A DNA stretch of 25,559 bases from a virus: IMG/VR virus record IMGVR_UViG_3300017751_000197, positions 1 through 25,559 of that record. One strand, written 5' to 3'. This document shows positions 3,991 to 25,440 of this stretch, in pieces (within the stretch, counting starts at the first letter, position 1; each line of letters opens with the position of its first letter). Both the position numbers and the translations under genes were made by a program. Below the pieces are notes generated by a model. The model was not told the DNA's origin and ran no database searches. It saw nothing but the letters and a program-made list of their open reading frames with translations.

Positions 3991-4429
3991 TTCTTAAAAA
4001 CTCCACTGTTTCATTTTCTAGCCATATAGTTGCAGGAAGAACAAAACAGTTTAAAAACTGTATAAACATCCATTCTTCAGTGTTTCTTGGCTGTAGATTT
4101 GTTACTACGAATACAGGTGAACGATTATACTTAAAGAAAAGTAAAGGTTCTTGATCGCCACCTGCGGCTTGTTTTTCTACTTTTTTCCACCAGCGAACCA
4201 GATTATTAGTCTTTCTCGCAGTGAATATTTTGTCGGAGAGAGGAGAACTCTCATAGTTCTTTACTTCTATACAGAAGCGATTTTTTTCGTTTGGCACATA
4301 TAAGTCTCCTTTTAAATACTCAAGCGCGCCCGAATTCGGGACACGCTCAAATTGAAGGTCTGTTGCCCCACGAAGCATATCTCGAACTAGATATTCTCCT
4401 CGCGCACCTTTTGCTCTGCTATCAACCAT
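3971..4429 (-). CDS. PD-(D/E)XK nuclease, Holliday-junction-resolvase-like
   Basis: The 152-residue protein shows the pattern of archaeal Hjc-type resolvases and related nucleases: an N-terminal helix GARGEYLVRDML with the metal-binding Glu, then GDLYV (Asp), then CIEVKNY, which is the E-x-K core. Such enzymes cut branched DNA, so it could resolve recombination or replication intermediates together with SbcCD and the UvsW-like helicase upstream. The family assignment rests on the ordered E...D...E-x-K motif. The exact substrate is inference, and a VRR-NUC-like or other junction nuclease is possible. Its ATG overlaps the preceding stop (TAATG), a sign of translational coupling. Confidence 0.75.
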   Translation of the reverse strand: MVDSRAKGARGEYLVRDMLRGATDLQFERVPNSGALEYLKGDLYVPNEKNRFCIEVKNYESSPLSDKIFTARKTNNLVRWWKKVEKQAAGGDQEPLLFFKYNRSPVFVVTNLQPRNTEEWMFIQFLNCFVLPATIWLENETVEFLRNGVQFQ

Positions 4430-24764: not shown

Positions 24765-24872
24765 TCAAGATAAGGACGACACACACAAAAGCATTGTGCT
24801 AATTGTCCATAGACTCAGTACATATATACCATAAGTGTTTAAGCGTCGAAATAGTCGAGGTTTAGGCGTCAT
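24765..24872 (-). CDS. Membrane microprotein, 35 aa; holin candidate
   Basis: A short frame starts with an ATG overlapping the end of hsp20 by 11 bases. It has a strongly basic N-terminus (MTPKPRLFRRLN) and a hydrophobic helix of about 20 residues (YVLSLWTISTMLLCVSSLS). This predicts one membrane helix with the N-terminus inside. It is the only membrane protein next to the spanin and endolysin genes, so it might be a small holin or pinholin, but one-helix holins normally have a charged C-terminus, which this lacks. A leader-peptide role is an alternative. Bases 24747-24764 between it and the i-spanin are non-coding. Confidence 0.5.
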   Translation of the reverse strand: MTPKPRLFRRLNTYGIYVLSLWTISTMLLCVSSLS

Positions 24873-25281
24873 TAATTGTTACCACCTGTGCTTTCTGCTC
24901 TTCTGGAATTTCTTGATAAAGCGACACACATAGAAGACCGTTCTTCATATATGCTTCCTGTAACTTTATGTTCGTTCCTACTTTGAACACCCGAGTAAAT
25001 GTCTTACCACTCAAACCTTTATAGACGAATTCTTCATCTTCATCTGCTTCTTGCTTTGCAGTGCCTTCAATACGAAGTTCATTCTTATCAAACGTAATCT
25101 CAATATCTTCTTTGTCCCAGCCTGGAACAGCGACTTCTACACGATAGCCGTCGGATCCACACTTGAGTACATTGTATCGAGGATACCCTGTCATAGGGGC
25201 GTTTGAAAAGAAGTCTGGGGTCATAGTATCGAAGCCCAGAAAGAACTTGTGAAAGTCACTAATATTCATTTGCTTTGTCAT
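24862..25281 (-). CDS. Small heat-shock protein, Hsp20/alpha-crystallin family (IbpA-like)
   Basis: The 139-residue chaperone has an N-terminal arm with Phe-rich MNISDFHKFFLGFD, the alpha-crystallin domain from about residue 36 (YNVLKCGSDGYRVEVAVPG, ELRIEGTAKQE, FTRVFKV) with the characteristic A-x-MKNGLL-x-V motif, and a C-terminal IPEEQ containing the I-x-[IV]-like anchor region. It probably protects proteins during infection; Hsp20 is frequent in marine T4-like phages. An AAAGGAG site lies six bases before the ATG, directly after a pair of hairpins (see 25293-25338), so leader structure may control translation. Confidence 0.95.
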   Translation of the reverse strand: MTKQMNISDFHKFFLGFDTMTPDFFSNAPMTGYPRYNVLKCGSDGYRVEVAVPGWDKEDIEITFDKNELRIEGTAKQEADEDEEFVYKGLSGKTFTRVFKVGTNIKLQEAYMKNGLLCVSLYQEIPEEQKAQVVTINDA

Positions 25282-25292
25282 TTTTTTCTCCT

Positions 25293-25338
25293 TTGCGCCC
25301 GTTCGGTACGCAACTATGAGAGCCCTTTCGGTACTCTC
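25293..25338 (-). promoter_or_regulatory. Tandem matched hairpins in the hsp20 leader
   Basis: Two 21-base hairpins lie 25 bases apart, start to start. In the minus (mRNA) sense the upstream one is GAGAG-TA-CCGAAAGG-G-CTCTC (25338-25318) and the downstream one TTGCG-TA-CCGAACGG-G-CGCAA (25313-25293). The core G-TA-CCGAA-N-GGG-C is shared while the outer five pairs differ but stay complementary. The second hairpin ends beside the AAAGGAG ribosome site. Further upstream, arms GATTC/GAATC and CCGA/TCGG (25338-25383) can form a third element. This looks like a structured 5' leader. Confidence 0.6.
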
Positions 25339-25440
25339 GATTCTTAATTACCGAGTTATAGAGATCGGACTCTAGTGAATCTTTTTAACTATGTAGCCGA
25401 CTGGTTCTGTTGTGACTATCTCTTGTCTCTGCCCAATACA

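Follow-up and report, generated by a model that had tools for sequence, protein, structure and literature searches.

A viral DNA stretch of 25,559 nucleotides (IMG/VR record IMGVR_UViG_3300017751_000197, positions 1 to 25,559; hereafter the window) encodes on its minus strand an IbpA-type small heat-shock protein, Hsp20, whose gene is preceded by a leader with two similar hairpins, H1 and H2 (Table 1). The leader region is bordered on its 5' side by the TAG stop codon of an upstream reading frame (25372-25374). The phage is a distant relative of T5, with a DNA polymerase 44% identical to those of Vibrio T5-like phages, a D5-like regulator and SbcC. Relatives of the window Hsp20 were collected from IMG/VR and numbered L001 onward, single proteins being used as queries for further loci, and leaders carrying both hairpins are called twin leaders below.

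Table 1. Features in and around the hsp20 leader of the window
Feature	Positions	Strand	Description	Basis
H1	25318-25338	minus	GAGAGU-A-CC-GAAA-GG-GCUCUC; bulged A at 25332; GAAA loop	sequence, fold, covariation
H2	25293-25313	minus	UUGCGU-A-CC-GAAC-GG-GCGCAA; bulged A at 25307; 3' end directly at the Shine-Dalgarno sequence	sequence, fold, covariation
Shine-Dalgarno sequence (SD), AGGAG	25288-25292	minus	predicted single-stranded in the isolated leader	sequence, fold
hsp20 ATG	25279-25281	minus		sequence
hsp20 gene	24862-25281	minus	139 amino acids, IbpA-type small heat-shock protein, downstream of the leader	Pfam HSP20 (2.2e-15); PHROG 432 'Hsp20 heat shock protein' (3.7e-33)
H0 arms	25359-25374	minus	UAGAG-UCCGAU-CUCUA; overlaps the upstream stop codon	
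Upstream reading frame, 3' part	25372-25440	minus	frame end conserved in L003-L005	translation

An earlier reading of the letters alone (the sequence-only reading) had described two hairpins with a common core and different, still complementary stems, the second abutting the hsp20 ribosome site, and folding, shuffling and covariation confirm this picture. Its five-base-pair stems needed correction, since the 'TA' of the core is a U.G closing pair followed by a bulged A, and each hairpin is thus made of a 6 bp stem, the 5'-side bulged A, two C-G pairs and a tetraloop. A 63-nt stretch of the leader folds into exactly H1 and H2 and leaves both SD and AUG unpaired (-19.2 kcal/mol, z = -3.3), a fold that was equalled by 0 of 200 shuffled sequences. 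The further pair of arms that had been noticed upstream does exist, as H0, but it is kept in the close relatives L001-L006 only and lies outside the general element. The hexamer UCGGUA, found 5' of H1 (window 25349-25354, minus strand), is exactly complementary to the core motif UACCGA and could compete with H1 and H2; it is present in L001-L005 and not in L006.

The same two hairpins recur among the IMG/VR relatives of the window Hsp20, with stems that are altered yet complementary, and they stand before hsp20 in L001-L006 and L011-L013. IMG/VR was also scanned twice with the core alone (ACCGAAAGG occurring twice), the second scan additionally demanding GGAG. Among the IMG/VR matches listed, an Hsp20 frame lay downstream of all 58 twin cores with pairable flanks (58/58) and of none of the 33 without them (0/33); 55 of the 58 structured cores stem from the pattern-only scans, and 29 of these are unique. 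The 32 distinct elements, in which 88.8% of cells pair, have a covariation score of 0.745; shuffles gave 0.170 +/- 0.021, and slid controls did not exceed 0.186. Entry into this set required three inner pairs, which excluded nothing because every hsp20-linked core had such pairs. The bulged A and the CC/GG pairs are nearly invariant among twin hairpins and the loops are variable (GAAA, GAAC, GAAU, GCAA, GUAA and longer ones such as GAUUA). The inner pair of H2 is predicted to form with less certainty than that of H1 (0.80 versus 0.95). A covariance-model search had been proposed as a check, and a model built from a gap-free alignment (R1) found the leader in 6 of 6 twin-class records and gave no match in a contig with an unstructured twin core (G011); its matches in named phages were weak and probably due to chance, and a search of named phages for DNA homology to the leader gave a chance match only. 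The exact core had 12 matches in a bacterial and archaeal genome collection, 0 of them structured and 0 near hsp20, no family of Rfam 15 matches the window leader, and the literature searched, which largely excludes subscription journals, held no paper on a phage hsp20 leader. Homologous leaders with preserved stems thus occur in related phages, as expected from the sequence-only reading, and a conserved structured RNA with complementary stem changes is strongly supported. This adds to environmental phages of several unrelated types a conserved structured RNA that is absent from Rfam 15.

Twin leaders are found in different kinds of phage. One of them (L158) lies on a HTVC115P-like podoviral contig whose portal protein shares 60.9% identity with its counterpart in pelagiphage HTVC115P, a phage that itself bears a ROSE-like leader and not the twin type, and another (L098) lies on a contig with a phrog_262 DNA polymerase, which we take to be of the T4 type and the contig to be T4-like. 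The gene neighbours of twin-leader hsp20 also vary in several ways. The different phage types, the different neighbours and the other leader of HTVC115P together indicate that the leader travels with the hsp20 allele and not with a phage type or a regulatory system.

Heat-shock genes of this family are often controlled by RNA thermometers, a possibility raised by the sequence-only reading that the folding predictions do not bear out. Partition-function folding was carried out at five temperatures (5-45 C), with ROSE-like phage leaders and E. coli ibpA as comparison. The predicted openness of the SD had a median of 0.54 to 0.69 in twin leaders over this range, against 0.08 to 0.36 in ROSE-like phage hsp20 leaders and 0 to 0.05 in E. 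coli ibpA, so that heat-dependent SD release is predicted to be absent from twin leaders and is not supported. Anti-SD sequences of the U[UC]GCU and UUUU types are both missing from the window leader, and no U-run in it is paired with AGGAG as a fourU element would require. The leader is therefore not read as a thermometer of the ROSE or fourU kind, given the lack of an Rfam match and an SD that is predicted to be open throughout 5-45 C.

The sequence-only reading had found no match of the core to ROSE or fourU elements, which is correct at the level of Rfam, yet comparison with other leaders brings out a relation to one part of ROSE, its upstream hairpin. The hsp20 leaders of named phages (cyanophages, Melnitz, HTVC115P, Atu_ph07 and others) contain two hairpins. 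The upstream one follows the order stem, bulged G, C[CU], loop, [AG]G and stem, with a loop that is often UUCG and is GAAA in MED4-213, and the second sequesters the SD and has a bulged G of its own (CUC-G-CUU..AAG-GAG). P-SSM2 (252 kb), Syn33 and AG-345-O18 each contain a single copy of the sequence GCCTTCGGG, and in all three it lies in the hsp20 leader. Both hairpins are contained in the Rfam ROSE_3 consensus, hairpin I reading ugCGgGAU-G-CCGAAg..CGG-GUCcCGca, and in six named phage genomes the best ROSE_3 match is the hsp20 leader, with a score below the gathering threshold. Leaders of cyanophages, methylophages, pelagiphages and an Agrobacterium phage (L174-L195) likewise appear to be ROSE-like thermometers (U[UC]GCU..AAGGAG) that fall below the Rfam cut-off.

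Among 76 representative ROSE-like leaders, the bulged-G hairpin I was present in 73 (3.9 in shuffles, maximum 10) and the bulged-G SD hairpin in 74 (6% in shuffles). The hairpin-I-type module was found in 24 of 24 twin leaders, and the bulged-G SD hairpin in 3 of 24, with about 3% in shuffles there. Twin leaders thus share with ROSE_3 (RF02523) and ROSE-like leaders the class of downstream gene and the hairpin I order of stem, bulged purine and CC:GG, but they lack the U[UC]GCU anti-SD hairpin, leave the SD free, carry the hairpin-I-type element twice and have a bulged A instead of a G. The bulge is A in 92 of 95 twin hairpins and G in 141 of 141 ROSE-like hairpins I, and in the close relatives L003-L005 the bulge of H1 is itself a G. 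Comparable hairpins precede the E. coli genes ibpA (AGGACGC-G-CC-UGAU-GG-GUGUUCU) and ibpB (AUGCUC-G-CC-GUCA-GG-GAGCAU), and under a strict definition hairpin I was found at 7 of 14 ibpA loci in genomes of the GTDB class to which a Zoogloea genome belongs; for 2 of these 14 the start is doubtful. The short ROSE-like elements of Pseudomonas also place two hairpins before ibpA, of which hairpin I, a stable and conserved one, does not melt, thermosensing being due to hairpin II alone (PMC3669281); their hairpin II contains the SD, whereas neither hairpin of the window does. The role of such 5' hairpins has been called not fully understood (PMC3669281). The twin leader is a variant of the leaders of small heat-shock genes, and the shared architecture, position and gene class make it best read as a relative of ROSE in which the hairpin-I-type element is present twice and the thermosensing hairpin II is missing. 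Its descent from ROSE is probable, as judged from architecture, position and gene and not from a model score.

In E. coli, IbpA binds its own 5' untranslated region and represses its own translation, an activity that strictly depends on R93 (the R93K variant is dead) and also needs an aromatic residue at position 34 (PMC10474464). The phage protein is of the same IbpA type, and both systems have bulged-purine/CC hairpins in their leaders (G in E. coli). At position 34 the window protein has Tyr, and most relatives have Tyr or Phe, with His in one. The differences lie in the leader, which has no thermometer hairpin in the phage, in the RNA binding, which was shown for the E. coli protein, and in the position of R93, which is occupied by K in the window protein and in 48 of 48 unique proteins of the twin class, and by R in 138 of 148 of the ROSE-like class. 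In a tree of 102 Hsp20 proteins the twin class forms one clade of 25, with L098 placed elsewhere.

Protein binding had been listed as an alternative by the sequence-only reading and is now the preferred one. Considering the covarying structure, the conservation, the restriction to hsp20, the lack of predicted SD sequestration and the hairpin I architecture, H1 and H2 may together act in cis as a translational operator on the phage hsp20 mRNA, with ROSE as its probable origin and with the IbpA-type Hsp20 encoded by that mRNA as its ligand, a proposal towards which we lean only slightly. Free Hsp20, as a dimer or oligomer, would bind both bulged-purine hairpins and block the access of the 30S subunit to the adjacent SD. 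Misfolded protein would occupy Hsp20 during infection or stress and thereby free the operator, so that more chaperone is made, and the leader would act as a sensor of chaperone titration and not as a thermometer. Protein-binding hairpins beside the SD are known from the operators of T4 gene 43 and of RNA-phage coat proteins, and in the MS2 operator, as in H1 and H2, two base pairs separate a bulged A from the tetraloop above it; these proteins and sequences are unrelated, and the likeness is one of analogy and not of homology.

Several observations weigh against an operator bound by Hsp20. The E. coli protein loses RNA binding upon R93K, and therefore K93 cannot simply import the E. coli mechanism and a changed specificity must be assumed. 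Both leader switches accompany K93, but as there are no more than two such switches on independent branches (sign test p = 0.5), the association between R or K and the leader type is not taken as independent proof. K93 also occurs together with ROSE-like leaders, in 9 unique proteins. None of the ROSE models (RF00435, RF01832 and RF02523) matched the window leader at E<=5, the sole ROSE_3 match in the window record lying away from it (4294-4347, E 0.07). Finally, the twin hairpins of L007-L010 are followed by a small secreted-looking open reading frame (ORF), which itself lies directly before hsp20.

Another RNA-binding protein, be it a host or another phage factor, might instead tune hsp20 translation through the same structure, Hsp20 not being the ligand. 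The sequence-conserved core (ACCGAAAGG) and its position next to the SD would suit any protein operator, but the element is confined to hsp20 across unrelated phages (T5-like, podoviral and T4-like), so that no gene other than hsp20 was seen to be shared, and HTVC115P, which is close to L158, has the other leader type; this alternative is considered unlikely. Somewhat less likely still is a structure that stabilizes or processes the mRNA, by 5' hairpins that block RNases or by an endonuclease landing site, with initiation left unregulated. Short, stable intergenic hairpins would be apt for this, as would the placement of hsp20 one gene further on in L007-L010, and mRNA stabilization has been suggested for the Pseudomonas ibpA hairpin I (PMC3669281); such a role would, however, need neither a conserved bulged A and CC/GG, nor a constant twin layout, nor a restriction to hsp20.

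An unconventional RNA thermometer, in which weak H2 stems or alternative pairings gate the SD by temperature, appears improbable. In a longer sequence context the minimum free energy fold of the window pairs CUCU of the H1 3' arm with GGAG of the SD, the inner pair of H2 is weaker than that of H1, and the ancestors were probably ROSE thermometers. On the other hand, this competing pairing cannot form in most relatives because their H1 3' arm differs in sequence, and the predicted SD openness is high and nearly constant at 5-45 C, unlike that of ROSE-like leaders or E. coli ibpA. A sensor of small molecules or ions that works by docking between the two hairpins, on the model of the guanidine-II (mini-ykkC) riboswitch, is very improbable. 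Twin hairpins with conserved loops just 5' of the SD speak for it, but the loops vary among twin hairpins and are GAAA and GAAC in the window (ACGR in guanidine-II), they are not complementary to each other, and Rfam has no matching riboswitch.

A broader reading that starts from binding by Hsp20 is offered more tentatively, and we doubt it somewhat more than we believe it. In bacteria and phages alike, ROSE hairpin I, in which a bulged purine precedes C[CU]:[AG]G on the 5' side, could be a module that small heat-shock proteins bind, from which one phage lineage would have made a thermometer-free double operator, the bulge changing from G to A together with a change from Arg to Lys at position 93. 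If true, this would give a function, the binding of small heat-shock proteins, to the poorly understood 5' hairpin of the most common family of RNA thermometers, and would separate temperature sensing from chaperone titration. It would also provide a natural pair of protein and RNA specificities, Arg with a bulged G and Lys with a bulged A, for studying RNA recognition by IbpA. Exceptions to this pairing, with K at the R93 position despite a ROSE-like leader, are seen in L323-L349, a Melnitz-like group, and in L176 (C48C1).

Some further features were observed around the leaders. The ORF between the twin hairpins and hsp20 in L007 (about 505-740), and likewise in L008, L009 and L010, encodes about 80 amino acids with a signal-peptide-like start, and as hsp20 has its own weaker SD there, the leader may govern both genes as one unit in these loci. 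Upstream of its true twin element, L007 contains a degenerate second copy of the motif (TCCCGAAAGGGA ... ATACCGAAGG, about 260-345) before a tiny ORF (MLYIYRGAKYRVVDGKRVQVK). In L007-L013 a terminator-like hairpin (GGGGC-UACG-GCCCC or GGGGGC-CUUG-CGCCCCC) followed by a T/A-rich tail is placed just 5' of H1, between the upstream stop codon and H1, and leaves hardly any space for a promoter. Additionally, cyanophage P-SSM2 carries a strong manA RNA (Rfam RF01745, 181.6 bits; L180:785-982) just after regA and upstream of hsp20.
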